This document shows positions 1-36,727 of a DNA stretch of 64,000 nt, in pieces. Source of the stretch: Streptomyces asiaticus (GTDB lineage Bacteria > Actinomycetota > Actinomycetes > Streptomycetales > Streptomycetaceae); assembly GCF_018138715.1 (NCBI RefSeq), contig NZ_JAGSHX010000006.1, positions 6,448,001 through 6,512,000 of the forward strand, read 5' to 3'. The notes below the pieces were generated by a model, which was not told the origin of the DNA, made no database searches, and saw only the letters and a program-made list of their open reading frames with translations. Each line of letters starts with the position of its first letter. Within the stretch, counting starts at the first letter, position 1. The position numbers were made by a program, and so were the translations under genes.

Positions 1-594
1 GGCCATCAGGACCGTGGTGCCCAGGTCGTGCACCAGCCGCTGAAGCACGGCCAGCACCTCCTCGGCCGCGGCCGGGTCCAGCGCGGAGGTCGGCTCGTCG
101 AGCACGAGGACGCGGGGGTGGGTGGTGAGCACCGAGCCGATCGCCACGCGCTGCCGCTGCCCGCCGGAGAGCGTGGCGATGGGACGGTCCCGCAACTCGG
201 CGAGGCCCAGCAGGTCCAGCGTCTCCTCGACCCGGCGGCGCATGGTGTCCGGCGCGATGCCGAGCGACTCCATGCCGTACGCCAGCTCGTCCTCGACGGT
301 GTCGGTGACGAAGTGCGCGAGCGGATCCTGGCCCACGGTGCCGACGACGTCGGCGAGTTCACGCGGCTTGTGGGTACGGGTGTCCCGGCCCGCGACGGTG
401 ACGCGGCCGCGCAGGGTGCCACCGGTGAAATGCGGTACGAGGCCGGAGACGGCGCCGAGGAGTGTCGACTTGCCGACCCCGGACGGGCCCACGAGCAGAC
501 ACAGCTCGCCCTCGGGAACGGTCAGATCCACCCCCGCGAGGGCGGGCCGCGCCGCGCCGTCGTAGTGGACCGACACCTGCTCGAAGCGGATCAC
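1..594 (-). CDS. ECF transporter ATP-binding protein (EcfA/CbiO-like), C-terminus outside window
   Basis: ATPase subunit of an energy-coupling-factor importer. All nucleotide-binding elements are visible in order: Walker A (GPSGVGKST), Q-loop (VGQDP), an EcfA-like TVEDELAYG stretch, the signature LSGGQRQR and Walker B with D-loop (VLVLDEPTSALDP). The GTG start at 594 overlaps the upstream EcfT stop (GTGA), so the two are probably translationally coupled. The reading frame is open to base 1, so only about the first 198 residues are present. It is the fourth gene of the riboswitch-controlled operon that begins at 4227, and cobalamin or cobalt import is inferred from that riboswitch. A substrate-binding S component is not visible and may lie beyond base 1. 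Confidence 0.9.
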   Translation of the reverse strand, partial: MIRFEQVSVHYDGAARPALAGVDLTVPEGELCLLVGPSGVGKSTLLGAVSGLVPHFTGGTLRGRVTVAGRDTRTHKPRELADVVGTVGQDPLAHFVTDTVEDELAYGMESLGIAPDTMRRRVEETLDLLGLAELRDRPIATLSGGQRQRVAIGSVLTTHPRVLVLDEPTSALDPAAAEEVLAVLQRLVHDLGTTVLMA

Positions 595-2174
595 TGCGTG
601 GCCTCCTCGGACCCCGCCCCGGCTCGCTCGTCCTCTCGCTCGCCGGGTGGGGTTTGTGCGGTGGGGTTGCTTGGGGGCGGCTCCGTGGCCGCGTCGTCGG
701 GTTGCGGGTGCGGCTCGATGGCGGGCCGGGCGCCGGGGTACGGGGGTTCGGGGCGTCGCCGGTCCCGGGCGCGGGCCGGTTTGGTGGGGGCGTCTTCCGG
801 CGGGGCCGGTTCGCGGCTCGTGGCTGGGGGTGGTACCGGTGCGGGCGCGGTGTCCGGGGGCGGCGCCGTGGCCGCGTCGCCGGGTTGCGGGTGCCGCTTG
901 GCCGCGGGCCGGGTGTCGGGGCCGGGGGATTCCGGGCGCTGCCGGTCCCGGGCGTGGGCCGGTTCGGTGGGGGCCTTGTGCGGCGGGGCCGGTTCGCGGG
1001 CCGGAGCCCGTGTTGGTGCCGGGGCCGCGAGAGCCGGGAGCAGGCCCAGGAGCACCGCCGCCGCGGGCCACAGCGGCAGGGTCGGGGTGGTGAGCGGGAC
1101 GACCGATGGCTGGAGGGCCTCGGGGGCGTAGGAGGCGGCCCGGATCATCAGGGCCGCGACCGCCGCCCCCGACCCCGCCACCAGCCACGCCCGTACGCCC
1201 CAGCGGTCCGGGCGGTAGCGGCTGCGCACCGAGCGGCGGCCGCCCAGCCACAGACCGCCGAGCGCGGCGGCGAGCCCGGCGAGCAGCAGCGGCAGACCGT
1301 AGCCCGCGCCCTCGGCCGCGAGCAGGCCGTACGTACCGCAGCAGACGCCGAGCAGCCCGCCCAGCGTCAGCGCGGTGGTGGTACGGGCGACGGCGGGCGG
1401 GACCTGGGCGGTGCGGCCGTACCCGCGCGCGTCCATCGCCGCCGCCAGGGCCACCGAGCGTTCCAACGCGCCCTCCAGCACCGGCAGTCCGACCTGGAGC
1501 AGCGCCTTCACGCCGCGGTCGGGGCGGCCGCGCAGCCTGCGGGCGGAGCGCAGCCGCTGCACGTCCGCCACCAGATGGGGCGCGAAGGTCATCGCCACCA
1601 CGACCGCGACCCCGGCCTCGTAGAGCGCGCCGGGCAGCGACTTGAGCAGCCGCGCCGGGCTGGCGAGGGCGTTCGCGGCGCCGACGCAGATCAGCAGGGT
1701 GGCCAGCCGCAGCCCGTCGTACAGCGCGAACACCAGCCCCTCGGCCGACACCCGGCCGCCGATGCGCACTCCCTGCGCCCAGTGGGGCAGCGGGACCTCG
1801 GGGAGCGTGAAGAGCACCCGCGTCCCCGGGATCGGCGAGCCGAAGAAGACCGCGAAGAACAGCCGGATGGCCAGCACGACGAGACCGAGCGTGAGGAACG
1901 CCGTGTACGAGCGGGCCCATGGCGCGTCCGTGCGGCGTACGGCCACCACATAGCCCGCGACCGCGATCAGCAGCCCGAGCAGCAGCGGGTTGGTGGTCCG
2001 GGACGCGGCCGTGGCCAGCCCGAGCGCCCACAGCCACCAGGCCCCGGCGTGCAGGGCGCTTCCGCCGCGCGGGGCACTACCCGTTGGCCGGACGCGGAAC
2101 CCGACGCCCCGGTGGCGCGGGGCGGTGGCCTCGGGCGTGGTGCGCGCTGCCATGGCGGTCTTCCGTGCGCTCAT
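591..2174 (-). CDS. ECF transporter transmembrane protein (EcfT/CbiQ family) with long proline-rich tail
   Basis: Membrane coupling subunit of the ECF importer. Residues about 40-365 hold several hydrophobic helices and the EcfT-type Ala-Arg-Gly coupling motif (AMDARGYG, about residue 240) that docks on the ATPases. Residues about 365-527 form an unusual low-complexity tail rich in Pro, Ala, Glu and Arg. The tail is built from two diverged copies of a roughly 55-residue unit, each starting REPAPP and containing an RP-rich stretch and an HPQP.DAAT motif. Typical EcfT proteins are 250-300 residues, so the tail accounts for the extra length. The ATG start overlaps the upstream stop by 4 bp, and the stop overlaps the ATPase start. 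The transporter assignment is firm; the role of the tail is unknown. Confidence 0.88.
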   Translation of the reverse strand: MSARKTAMAARTTPEATAPRHRGVGFRVRPTGSAPRGGSALHAGAWWLWALGLATAASRTTNPLLLGLLIAVAGYVVAVRRTDAPWARSYTAFLTLGLVVLAIRLFFAVFFGSPIPGTRVLFTLPEVPLPHWAQGVRIGGRVSAEGLVFALYDGLRLATLLICVGAANALASPARLLKSLPGALYEAGVAVVVAMTFAPHLVADVQRLRSARRLRGRPDRGVKALLQVGLPVLEGALERSVALAAAMDARGYGRTAQVPPAVARTTTALTLGGLLGVCCGTYGLLAAEGAGYGLPLLLAGLAAALGGLWLGGRRSVRSRYRPDRWGVRAWLVAGSGAAVAALMIRAASYAPEALQPSVVPLTTPTLPLWPAAAVLLGLLPALAAPAPTRAPAREPAPPHKAPTEPAHARDRQRPESPGPDTRPAAKRHPQPGDAATAPPPDTAPAPVPPPATSREPAPPEDAPTKPARARDRRRPEPPYPGARPAIEPHPQPDDAATEPPPSNPTAQTPPGEREDERAGAGSEEATQ

Positions 2175-2929
2175 CCGCGACGGCGGCGCGCCTGCCAGAC
2201 CGCCGCGGCGCCGAGCAGCACGACGGCGGCGAGCCCGCCGATCAGCCCGGCCGAGGGGCCCGAGCCGCCGTCGCCCGCCTTGCCGCCGTCACCCTTCGGG
2301 GCGGCGTGGGCGTCCACGGAGGTGCTCACCTTGTCCCCGCAGCCCGTCTCCGGGTAGCCGGAGATGGCGCAGAGCAGCGCGGCGGAGTTGTAGCGCAGCG
2401 GCTTCGCGACGGCGGCGAGCGCCTCCCCGGCGGACGCGTCCTCGCCGACCCGTGCGCACTCGGTACGGGGCGCGGGCGGCGTCCGGCGGTCGGGTGCGTC
2501 GGTGGCCGTGCCGAAGTCGATGACCACCGCGACGCGTTTGGTGCCGTCCGTGGCCGGGGTGTCGGCGCAGACGGCGGCGAAATCGGCCATGCCGCGCGGC
2601 CGGGTGGCGTCGTCGGAGTCCGCGCTGACCGCGAAGCGGAAGCCGATCATGTCGCCATCACCGGGCCGTGCCGAGGAGGGCCCCTGCGTGGCATAGCTCC
2701 AACTGCCGTCGTCCCCGCCCCGCTGCCAGAACGACCAGTAGCGGTACCCGTCCGCGGCCTGCGCGGGCGCCGCGCAGGCCATCGCGAGAAGGGCGACGAC
2801 GGGCAGCACCGAGGCGACGGCGCACAGCAACAACCGGGCCGCACGGCCGCACCAGGCGAAACGCGCGCGGGTGCGCGGGACCGAAGCCGCCCCGGTGCGG
2901 ACCGGTGCCACATCTGTGCGCGGGGTCAA
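2171..2929 (-). CDS. secreted membrane-anchored protein, SCO2322-like family
   Basis: About 252 residues. It has an N-terminal signal-like segment (LLLCAVASVLPVVALLA, then AQA|ADGYRYW), an extracellular domain of about 160 residues with two Cys pairs, and a C-terminal transmembrane helix followed by an RRRRG stop-transfer tail. I chose the TTG start at 2929: it overlaps the upstream stop (TTGA) and has a purine-rich GGAAGAGG about 8 bases upstream. GTG 2911 is an alternative. The early mature region (YRYWSFW ... GDGDMIGFRFA) recalls the small beta-domain found in transcobalamin/intrinsic-factor C-termini and DUF4430 proteins; that is a pattern-based inference, not a proven match. It sits between a secreted alpha/alpha-barrel gene and the ECF transporter genes, suggesting a ligand-capture role outside the membrane. 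Confidence 0.72.
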   Translation of the reverse strand: MTPRTDVAPVRTGAASVPRTRARFAWCGRAARLLLCAVASVLPVVALLAMACAAPAQAADGYRYWSFWQRGGDDGSWSYATQGPSSARPGDGDMIGFRFAVSADSDDATRPRGMADFAAVCADTPATDGTKRVAVVIDFGTATDAPDRRTPPAPRTECARVGEDASAGEALAAVAKPLRYNSAALLCAISGYPETGCGDKVSTSVDAHAAPKGDGGKAGDGGSGPSAGLIGGLAAVVLLGAAAVWQARRRRG

Positions 2930-4227
2930 AGCTGTCGCCTCTTCCGGCCGCTCAGCAGGAAGCCGATGCCCATGCCGGCGACCGCGCAGACGCCGACCGT
3001 CCACCAGACGCCGCCGACCCCGCCGCCGTCGTCCTTCTTCTCCTCGCTCTTGCCGTTCCCGTCCGACTCCGCGCCCGGGGCCGCCGCCTCGGGCTTCGGG
3101 CCGGTGGCGTTGAGCTGCTGGACGAGGTCGGCGCCGCCGAAGTCGCGGGGGTTGGCACCGGCCGCGTGGGCCGCGAGGATCAGTTTGGCGAGGGCGCCGG
3201 GGTCGCCCTTGGCCCAGGCCGCCGTGCCACTGTCCTTGCTCTGGAGCCACTGGAGGGGCTTGCCCGCGGCCGCGCTGTGCTCCCCGGCGGCGAGCGCCAC
3301 CACCGCGTCGGCCGTGCCGCCGAGGTCGGGCTGGTCCTTGGCGCCGGGCATCGCGGACTTCAGGTGCATACCGGTGTCGGACATGACGCGGGTGAGGTGG
3401 GCCAGGGCGGCCTCGGCGGCGTCCTTCGGGGCGTCGGCCCCGTCCTTCCCCTTCTCGCAGCGCAGCGGCTTCGGCTCGGCGCCGCCGTCCTTGCCGACGG
3501 TCTCGAAGACGAAGCCCTTGCCCTGCGCGGCCAGCGCGGCGCTCGCGGTGGCCAGCTCATTGGCGACGGGCTTGCCCTTGGCCGCGGTGTACGCGAACGC
3601 CCCGCGCTCCTCGGCCTTCGCCGAGCAGTCCAGTTGCAGGCCGAGCAGTGCGTGGTACGGGGTCTTGCCGCCCTTGCCCGAGGCCCCCTTGCCCGCGGCC
3701 CTCTTGCCCGAGGCCGACGTCACCTTCGCCGGATCCTGGCCGGTGGCGGCGAAGGCGCCGATCGCCGCCGCGGTGGAGTTGGCGTCGCTCGGGCCGCCCG
3801 GGTTCATGCCCCAGCCGCCGTCCTCGTTCTGGTGGCGCTTCAGCCAGCCGATGCCCTTCTCCACGGTGCCGGAGCGGCCGCCCACCGCGGCCAGCGCCTG
3901 GACCGCCGCCGCCGTCGCGTCCGTGAACTCGCCCTTCTTCGGGTCGCACGCCTTGGACGTATCCGCGCGGTACGCCGCGAAGCCGCCGTCCGCGCACCCC
4001 TGTCCGGCCAGCCAGTCGATGGCCGACTTCGCCGGGGTGACGCCCACCGCGTCCTGGGCCAGCAGCGCCAGCGACTGCCGCCACACCCCGTCGAACTTCG
4101 GGTCCTTGGCGCCGTAGAGCCCCTCGGCACGCCCGGCCTGGCCGTCGTCGGCCACGGCGGCAGGCGCGGCGGCCGCGCCCAGTGCGGCGCAGAGGGAAAG
4201 AGCCGCCACGCTGCGGCGAATGTTCAT
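2926..4227 (-). CDS. secreted prenyltransferase/squalene-oxidase-repeat alpha/alpha-barrel protein, membrane anchored
   Basis: 433 residues: a signal peptide (MNIRRSVAALSLCAALGAAA, cleavage near AVA|DD), a body of repeated helical units with the terpene-cyclase-like GCADGGF and NEDGGWG motifs, then a Ser/Gly/Glu-rich linker, a C-terminal transmembrane helix and a basic GRKRRQL tail. The repeat fold (alpha6/alpha6 barrel) also forms the N-terminal domain of animal intrinsic factor and transcobalamin. The protein is exported, so it cannot be a cytosolic prenyltransferase. It is the first gene after a cobalamin riboswitch and overlaps the next gene by 4 bp. I infer an extracellular cobalamin-binding role. 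ATG 4227 is chosen because it opens directly with the signal peptide; in-frame upstream codons run through the leader RNA. Confidence 0.8.
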   Translation of the reverse strand: MNIRRSVAALSLCAALGAAAAPAAVADDGQAGRAEGLYGAKDPKFDGVWRQSLALLAQDAVGVTPAKSAIDWLAGQGCADGGFAAYRADTSKACDPKKGEFTDATAAAVQALAAVGGRSGTVEKGIGWLKRHQNEDGGWGMNPGGPSDANSTAAAIGAFAATGQDPAKVTSASGKRAAGKGASGKGGKTPYHALLGLQLDCSAKAEERGAFAYTAAKGKPVANELATASAALAAQGKGFVFETVGKDGGAEPKPLRCEKGKDGADAPKDAAEAALAHLTRVMSDTGMHLKSAMPGAKDQPDLGGTADAVVALAAGEHSAAAGKPLQWLQSKDSGTAAWAKGDPGALAKLILAAHAAGANPRDFGGADLVQQLNATGPKPEAAAPGAESDGNGKSEEKKDDGGGVGGVWWTVGVCAVAGMGIGFLLSGRKRRQL

Positions 4228-4389
4228 GGCTGTGGTGCCTCTCGGTCGGTGGACGGGCGCACGCAGCCGCGCACGGCCGTCCAGCCGCGCCGCACGCGGA
4301 ACGCTCCGCGGCACGCCTGGCACCCGGCTCAGCTCCGCATACCTCGACGGTGCCGCCACCGGTCGTCCGGCGGCGGGAGCCTGCGTCGT

Positions 4390-4500
4390 CGCGCCCGCCC
4401 GGGTGTTCCGGCTCGTACGCCCCACGGGGCGTGCTCACGGTTGCGGGTCAGCGCCGGAATCACACCGGCTTCCCCCGATCGGACGCGTATGAAGTTTACG
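4390..4500 (-). promoter_or_regulatory. cobalamin (B12) riboswitch
   Basis: Read on the minus strand, the conserved core is present in order: GGGGAAGCCGGTG, ATTCCGGCGCTG, ACCCGCAACCGT and, about 30 bases on, the B12-box-like GAGCCGGAACACCCGGGC (4414-4397). These match the conserved core and B12 box of cobalamin riboswitches. It lies in the leader of the secreted barrel / SCO2322-like / EcfT / EcfA operon, about 165 bases before the first ATG, and its 5' side abuts the end of the GNAT gene. In this family cobalamin binding normally lowers expression, so the operon should be induced when B12 is scarce. Confidence 0.9.
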
Positions 4501-36319: not shown

Positions 36320-36720
36320 CGAGCCGGCCGGGCGGTCGCGTCGGGATCTTCGGATCCCGCCGAGGAACGTCCGGGCTCCACACGGCAAGGTGGTGGGTAA
36401 CGCCCACCCGGGGTGACCCGCGGGACAGTGCCACAGAAAACAGACCGCCGAGGGCTTCGGCCCCCGGTAAGGGTGAAACGGTGGTGTAAGAGACCACCAG
36501 CGTCCGAGGTGACTCGGACGGCTCGGTAAACCCCACCTGGAGCAAGGTCAAGAGGAGCCGCCGCAAGGCGGCTCTGCGCGGACGATCGAGGGCTGCCCGC
36601 CCGAGTCCGCGGGTAGACCGCACGAGACCGGCGGCAACGCCGGTCCTAGATGGATGGCCGCCTCCCCGAGGGCCGCAAGGCCCCCGGGAGACAGAACCCG
36701 GCGTACAGGCCGACTCGTCC
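36320..36720 (+). ncRNA. rnpB: RNase P RNA (type A)
   Basis: Complete catalytic RNA of RNase P, which matures tRNA 5' ends. Start CGAGCCGGCCGGGCGGTCGC and end CCGACTCGTC pair as the terminal helix. The conserved blocks GAGGAACGTCCGGGCTCC, GACAGTGCCACAGAAAACAG, GGTAAGGGTGAAACGGTG, GTAAGAGACCACCAGC, TAAACCCC and ACAGAACCCGGCGTAC are all present in order. They agree closely with the Streptomyces RNA. This is one of the most secure calls in the window. Accessory DNA begins just after it. Confidence 0.98.
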
Positions 36721-36727
36721 GCCGCTA

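Follow-up and report, generated by a model that had tools for sequence, protein, structure and literature searches.

A putative vitamin B12 importer of Streptomyces asiaticus with two separately encoded surface proteins in apparently permuted domain order

The operon and its two surface proteins

The left end of a 64,000-nucleotide stretch of the Streptomyces asiaticus genome (assembly GCF_018138715.1, contig NZ_JAGSHX010000006.1, positions 6,448,001 to 6,512,000; hereafter the window, meaning this stretch at its full length) carries an operon for a putative energy-coupling factor (ECF) importer of vitamin B12. The operon lies entirely on the minus strand and runs from a cobalamin riboswitch through the genes for an alpha protein, a beta protein and EcfT to EcfA, which continues past base 1 (Table 1). 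Each of the three gene junctions inside the window has a 4-nt overlap of stop and start codon, in keeping with the translational coupling noted in a preliminary description of this DNA, made from its letters alone. That description also named EcfT and EcfA, and PF02361 and the ATPase domains uphold both assignments, but it missed a fusion: in the neighboring DNA that was fetched (stretch L009), the full EcfA is a 542-residue tandem double ATPase (L009:5967-7595, minus strand). Its suggestion that an S component be sought beyond base 1 led to EcfS, with which the parts list of an ECF importer is complete, comprising EcfT, two EcfA ATPase domains and, outside the window, the S component. The host genome is 11.9 Mb in size, and the closest named loci, judged by the beta protein, are those of S. 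sabulosicollis, S. endocoffeicus, S. hygroscopicus and S. violaceusniger. The Pro/Arg/Ala-rich tail of EcfT, beyond its transmembrane part, is encoded in part by a 183-nt tandem duplication, 78% identical, at positions 645-1010.

The B12 riboswitch reported ahead of the operon was recovered as RF00174 above the gathering score, in a match that covers only positions 45-169 of the 189 in the model. In 5 of 10 Streptomyces relatives scanned, RF00174 exceeds the gathering score at the same place in the leader; four of the other five were rescanned at a looser threshold, and two show a cobalamin-class match just under their gathering score.

The alpha protein, previously described as an exported, membrane-anchored alpha/alpha-barrel protein, fits that description and matches SCO2321_fam strongly. 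A Pfam scan finds cyclase-type toroid repeats in it, and its model is predicted to adopt an alpha6/alpha6-type toroid fold. Terpene cyclases are its best solved relatives both by sequence and by fold; intrinsic factor and transcobalamin are absent among the 50 matches listed in a structure search with the model. For the beta protein, whose start codon is uncertain (either TTG at 2929 or an in-frame start further on), the GPS-CTERM anchor and the SCO2322_fam match bear out the earlier view of an exported, anchored protein. Its beta-domain character is less direct: a Pfam scan of the protein in its natural order matched no family, and kinship to DUF4430 over the whole domain emerges only after the two halves are swapped.

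Table 1. Positions and supporting matches of the operon features (window coordinates unless L009 is given)
Feature	Position	Strand	Support
Cobalamin riboswitch aptamer, operon leader	4401..4475	-	RF00174, 36.2 bits vs gathering 31.5, E 1.5e-5
Alpha protein, 433 aa: signal peptide, predicted alpha/alpha toroid, C-terminal membrane anchor	2926..4227	-	NCBIfam SCO2321_fam NF053823, 529.8 bits vs cut-off 300
Alpha module A2, residues 6-239; N-terminal here, C-terminal in canonical relatives	3511..4212	-	blastp to L240 alpha 105-330, 44% identity, E 2e-39
Alpha module A1, residues 267-375; C-terminal here, N-terminal in canonical relatives	3103..3429	-	blastp to L240 alpha 30-130, 37% identity, E 2e-7
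Beta protein, 252 aa: signal peptide, apparently permuted DUF4430/SLBB-type domain, anchor	2171..2929	-	SCO2322_fam NF040672, 219.2 bits vs cut-off 85
Beta half B2, from residue 64 (YWSFW...IGFRF); N-terminal here, C-terminal in canonical relatives	2594..2740	-	hhalign to canonical beta 83-132, 49 columns
Beta half B1, residues 113-199 (VAVVIDFG...LLCAISGYP); C-terminal here, N-terminal in canonical relatives	2333..2593	-	hhalign to canonical beta 10-77, 60 columns
GPS-CTERM membrane anchor of beta	2177..2260	-	NF040681, 32.9 bits vs cut-off 28
EcfT (CbiQ-like) transmembrane protein, long repetitive C-terminal tail	591..2174	-	PF02361 CbiQ, 36.4 bits, E 5e-9
Start of fused double EcfA ATPase, continuing past base 1	1..594	-	Two ABC_tran stretches in full protein
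EcfS, 307 aa, outside window about 1 kb past base 1, after EcfA	L009:5098-6021	-	PF12822, E 2e-7

Domain order and probable kinship to animal B12 carriers

Sequence comparison indicates a circular permutation in each of the two window proteins when they are set against canonical-order relatives from the same operon type. These relatives carry the halves of beta in reverse order, and both of their proteins have the domain order of transcobalamin and intrinsic factor. Against one such locus, L240, blastp aligns the window alpha protein in two matches of swapped order (residues 6-239 on 105-330 and 267-375 on 30-130), and the window beta protein likewise (113-199 on 9-87, E 7e-15; 64-251 on 93-273, E 6e-13, a match whose end falls in the tail). 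These searches used whole reading frames with low-complexity masking and composition correction off, and matches into the Pro/Ala-rich tails were not counted as evidence. With the domains trimmed, swapped matches were obtained to 13 of 17 canonical alphas (single match in 3, co-linear in 1) and to 10 of 21 canonical betas, none of which was co-linear. The same trimmed domains gave no swapped match within the permuted type, where the alpha domain aligned straight with 26 of 32 proteins, through a shorter single match with 5 and as a co-linear pair with 1, and the beta domain aligned straight with 59 of 59. The alphas of L068 and L074 are co-linear with the window alpha when whole reading frames are compared and both swapped when trimmed domains are used; the L240 alpha gives a single match once trimmed. 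Two of these results tell against the permutation: the co-linear canonical alpha, whose gene (in L245) is truncated at the end of its contig, and the 11 of 21 canonical betas with a single blastp match, which is uninformative on order.

Profile comparisons point to the same rearrangement. Permuted and canonical beta profiles align in two swapped matches, one of 49 columns (score 85.9) and one of 60 (76.2), which become one match of 116 columns (score 155.8) when the halves of the permuted beta are exchanged. When the cut point was scanned in steps of 6 columns for beta and 12 for alpha, each scan peaked near the natural border, with a score of 153 for beta (85 unrotated) and, for alpha, of 430 across 308 columns, where the unrotated profile reaches 296 across 201. 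The profiles used to call locus types were partly built from the same loci; order was also read by blastp, which is independent of them.

Kinship to the animal carriers was approached through DUF4430, the name given to the C-terminal domain of transcobalamins in passages of one paper (PMC4350170). A 30-row beta profile with its halves swapped matches the DUF4430 profile over 95 of 105 columns (score 38.3), compared with 59 columns (32.5) unswapped and scores of at most 20.4 in 100 column shuffles, and DUF4430 in turn matches animal beta domains over 77 columns (score 51.7). The canonical alpha profile matches the alpha domain of animal intrinsic factor, haptocorrin and transcobalamin in one stretch of 227 columns (E 6e-5, probability 65%), and one canonical alpha matches PF01122 Cobalamin_bind below cut-off (E 0.11). 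On account of the DUF4430 and canonical alpha matches, whose profile scores are moderate, descent of the two proteins from transcobalamin-type domains appears probable. Several comparisons weigh against it. Compared directly with the animal beta domain, the beta profile covers 73 columns swapped (E 0.001) and 32 unswapped with the same score, 24.8; the canonical beta profile reaches just 20.0, and for the permuted alpha profile against animal alpha the score stays between 20 and 22 at every rotation. Neither window protein matched a transcobalamin by sequence. The beta structure model is of moderate confidence (pLDDT 75.8), shows a helix of low confidence in place of an expected strand and gave no usable match to solved structures, in a search by a sequential aligner expected to miss a permuted chain. 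Searches of solved structures with the window beta sequence returned nothing sensible, and with the canonical beta profile no transcobalamin; the canonical alpha found cyclases and complement toroids, with no intrinsic factor or transcobalamin in the best 60 of 69 matches. A direct Pfam scan of five canonical betas matched no family, DUF4430 included.

The permuted form is most likely the derived one, because it is the canonical order that matches animal alpha and DUF4430 and because of taxonomic spread. In a phylum-wide sample of 246 genomes, 9 genomes, all from the class of the window, contain a permuted beta that aligns co-linearly over its full length. The canonical beta profile matches 48 (half-length matches to permuted proteins included), of which 34 lie outside the class; one of the matches outside the class, in genome G504, overlaps a DUF4430 match.

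Like animal intrinsic factor, haptocorrin and transcobalamin (2pmv, 4kki, 2bb6), the window system combines a predicted toroid with a putative beta domain. It differs from them in distributing the two over separate polypeptides (genes 4227-2926 and 2929-2171), in its membrane anchors and permuted order, and in working beside an ECF transporter instead of an endocytic receptor. The split intrinsic factor/transcobalamin pair of the preliminary description stands as to separate surface proteins related to both domains, with the circular permutation of both to be added.

Pairing and distribution

The family is widespread: the SCO2322 model matched in 125 of 296 genomes of the class, with 103 over cut-off, and 80 Streptomyces loci each have an alpha and a beta match covering at least 85% of the query length. 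We surveyed 81 loci (the window and 80 fetched stretches), which were picked for family spread, weak matches included, and are not a random sample. A full set of EcfT, EcfA and EcfS is present within the surveyed stretch in 68 of the 81; contig ends truncate some of the remaining loci. The alpha and beta types agree in all 50 loci with both genes (33 permuted-permuted, 17 canonical-canonical, 0 mixed). Alpha lies beyond the ECF genes in L068 and L074 and is divergent in L069, and the types agree there nonetheless. A natural 1,214-residue fusion, L070:6733-10377 (minus strand), joins a canonical beta to Ig-like and apparently two toroid domains with a C-terminal anchor. On the strength of the type concordance, its persistence at non-adjacent loci, and this fusion, we take the alpha-beta pair to be a functional unit.

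An IQ-TREE phylogeny of transporter genes from 67 loci, which left out L079 and 13 loci lacking a complete set of EcfT, EcfA and EcfS, shows 4 changes of type, of which at least 2 fall on starred branches, and alpha follows beta. This quick tree carries long-branch and uneven letter make-up warnings, so that a number of switches between 2 and 4 is not firm. A sign test on independent switches has 2 pairs only, with which significance is unreachable. Grouping all canonical rows into one clade of the ECF tree was rejected (p 0.0037).

Alpha appears dispensable in some members, since the fetched stretch contains none in 27 of 60 permuted-type loci; it is also missing from 4 canonical loci. A few of these loci are cut by contig ends, one being L250, of the permuted type. 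A search with NF053823 of 10 genomes with alpha-less loci found no match in 9 and fragments in G131; the broader profile A7, run on 12 genomes (11 from alpha-less loci plus G044), found none in 10 and fragments of 72 positions in G131 and 36 in G158. One of the alpha-less genomes, that of L045, consists of a single contig of 1.4 Mb and has an adenosylcobalamin (AdoCbl) riboswitch directly before beta. Small alpha-less genomes of this kind seem to resemble the acI lineage, which is reported, in passages of PMC5301498, to be unable to synthesize B12 and to carry an ECF module behind cobalamin and AdoCbl riboswitches.

Some loci depart from the usual arrangement. L063 and L065 each contain four cobalamin riboswitches and duplicated beta genes (in L063 duplicated alpha genes as well), which suggests several B12-controlled units side by side. 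In L059 and L060, a permuted beta stands with no EcfT, EcfS or alpha nearby, and the conserved cysteines at the end of its domain are missing. The genomes of L068, L069 and L074 (G234, G163 and G089, of the window's genus) hold a canonical-order system in addition to a permuted one. Past the operon, outside the window and converging on ecfS, lies a gene for a small, probably exported protein with three near-identical repeats (L009:4381-4986, plus strand; CDGDTYKC...FGDGRWVAQW...VFHQ), which matched no family over a curated cut-off. Within the window itself, an RNase P RNA of bacterial class A, matched at 291 bits, is encoded at positions 36320-36721 (plus strand).

Proposed function and alternatives

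In 21 of 33 loci scanned, the first operon gene is closely preceded by a cobalamin, AdoCbl or AdoCbl-II riboswitch in the same orientation. The system recurs across the class, often behind one of three B12 riboswitch types, and this context supports a role in B12 uptake. We favor, at a probability of about 0.7, a B12-repressed ECF importer served by two exported, membrane-tethered proteins, in which beta holds the corrinoid, alpha acts as a lid and EcfS takes over the ligand. Cobalamin would repress the importer through the leader riboswitch. Beta would catch the corrinoid at the membrane surface, and alpha, where present, would close on top of it, a lid to increase affinity. EcfS would then receive the ligand, and the ECF motor would bring it in. 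Beta and EcfS would form the core, with alpha as an accessory, an arrangement that beta-only operons would fit. The lid is proposed by analogy with human transcobalamin, whose separately expressed domains assemble on addition of cobalamin, according to passages of PMC5599065. Further results that count against this model are the 12 of 33 scanned loci with no riboswitch over threshold before the operon, the failure of EcfS to match solved S components by sequence and, for the lid, the 27 permuted-type loci without alpha. The same 27 loci weaken the two-protein trap of the preliminary description, which gains from the setting in a B12-regulated ECF importer. A more specific version of the model, to which we give slightly less than an even chance, is an intrinsic-factor-type trap split into two tethered, permuted and co-inherited proteins that would assemble around cobalamin and discharge it into EcfS, with beta-only operons as its minimal form. 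In both partners the permutation would put the tether at the opposite end relative to the order of the domains, and the paired change may therefore preserve geometry towards the transporter.

The loci without alpha are also what one would see if beta alone were the surface receptor working with EcfS while alpha did something else (binding another cobamide form, a carrier or the wall) and never closed over the same ligand. The searched genomes with alpha-less loci mostly lack alpha elsewhere too, and the beta domain of human transcobalamin binds cobalamin unaided, as passages of PMC5599065 report. We nevertheless consider this unlikely, given that alpha and beta types are concordant throughout and switch together on the transporter tree, that nature has fused beta to alpha in L070 and that the known animal binders are made of both domains together. 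The concordance itself might reflect joint transfer of a neighboring gene pair with no bearing on joint action. Because the genes of most pairs lie side by side, a single exchange carries both along, and the starred branches force only 2 switches, too few for a sign test; such transfer does account for part of the concordance. As the whole explanation it is improbable, though less so than beta acting alone, because the pairs of L068, L069 and L074 remain concordant with their alpha genes displaced or divergent.

A different ligand would leave the importer in place and change what it carries. CbiQ/CbiO-type names are common to cobalt transporters, and cobalt and precursor genes are likewise under B12 riboswitch control. 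Cobinamide is carried by ECF-CbrT as well, according to passages of PMC5997447. That the ligand is cobalt, or a corrinoid or precursor akin to cobalamin (cobinamide or another cobamide), in place of cobalamin itself is nonetheless rather improbable, a little more so than a receptor made of beta alone: EcfS matches PF12822 and, below cut-off, PF07155 but not CbiM; two of the proteins are related to cobalamin binders; and the beta and ECF genes of L045 lie behind an AdoCbl riboswitch in a genome that appears acI-like, a lineage reported in part of PMC5301498 to be without B12 synthesis. The kinship of alpha to terpene cyclases could mean that it is an enzyme of the squalene-hopene-cyclase or prenyltransferase type and not a binder. 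DxDD is the catalytic motif of squalene-hopene cyclase, and no D.DD pattern occurs in the 433-residue alpha sequence, which moreover appears exported and anchored and is encoded with a B12 riboswitch and a transporter; the animal alpha domain is a toroid fold too. We regard an enzyme as very improbable.

The general concept of such a B12-scavenging system is already in print. Operons joining bacterial SLBB proteins of a transcobalamin-like clade, an alpha/alpha toroid and CbiO/CbiQ were proposed in 2007 to scavenge B12 (Burroughs et al., PMC1796856); as described in the relevant passages, they share the parts list and the predicted cell-surface scavenging, with both fused and stand-alone SLBB proteins. 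The window system differs in having the two domains on separate proteins, both of them apparently permuted, and neither "permut" nor "riboswitch" occurs in the main text of PMC1796856. In passages of the beta-grasp companion paper, permutation is named for the E1 UFD domain (PMC1949818). ECF-CbrT of Lactobacillus delbrueckii is likewise an ECF-type importer of vitamin B12, with its S component as the binding protein (passages of PMC5997447), a comparison from which the window EcfS stands apart in lacking a sequence match to a solved S component. The riboswitch-controlled putative cobalamin transporter of acI actinobacteria is possibly an alpha-less form of the window system, although the passages of PMC5301498 on that module, unlike the present case, name no alpha or beta surface proteins. 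The NCBIfam families whose cut-offs the window proteins exceed, SCO2321_fam and SCO2322_fam, convey neither function nor permutation in their names. A literature search, with subscription journals mostly outside its reach, returned no report of a split doubly permuted pair, a linked type switch or a beta-only form, and its listing showed SCO2321-SCO2325 in 1 paper, an unrelated one. The double permutation, as read from the comparisons above, is apparently new.

If the proposal holds, an ECF family member with two surface proteins akin to animal B12 carriers would tie the bacterial origin of those carriers to a transport machine, and their closing mechanism would become testable with natural two-piece parts. 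Circular permutation in two partners, in the same state in every pair seen, offers a rare natural experiment on how domains face each other. Two widespread families now named only by locus tag would also gain a function and, if the small alpha-less genomes are acI-like, the likely B12 receptor of abundant freshwater actinobacteria would be named.

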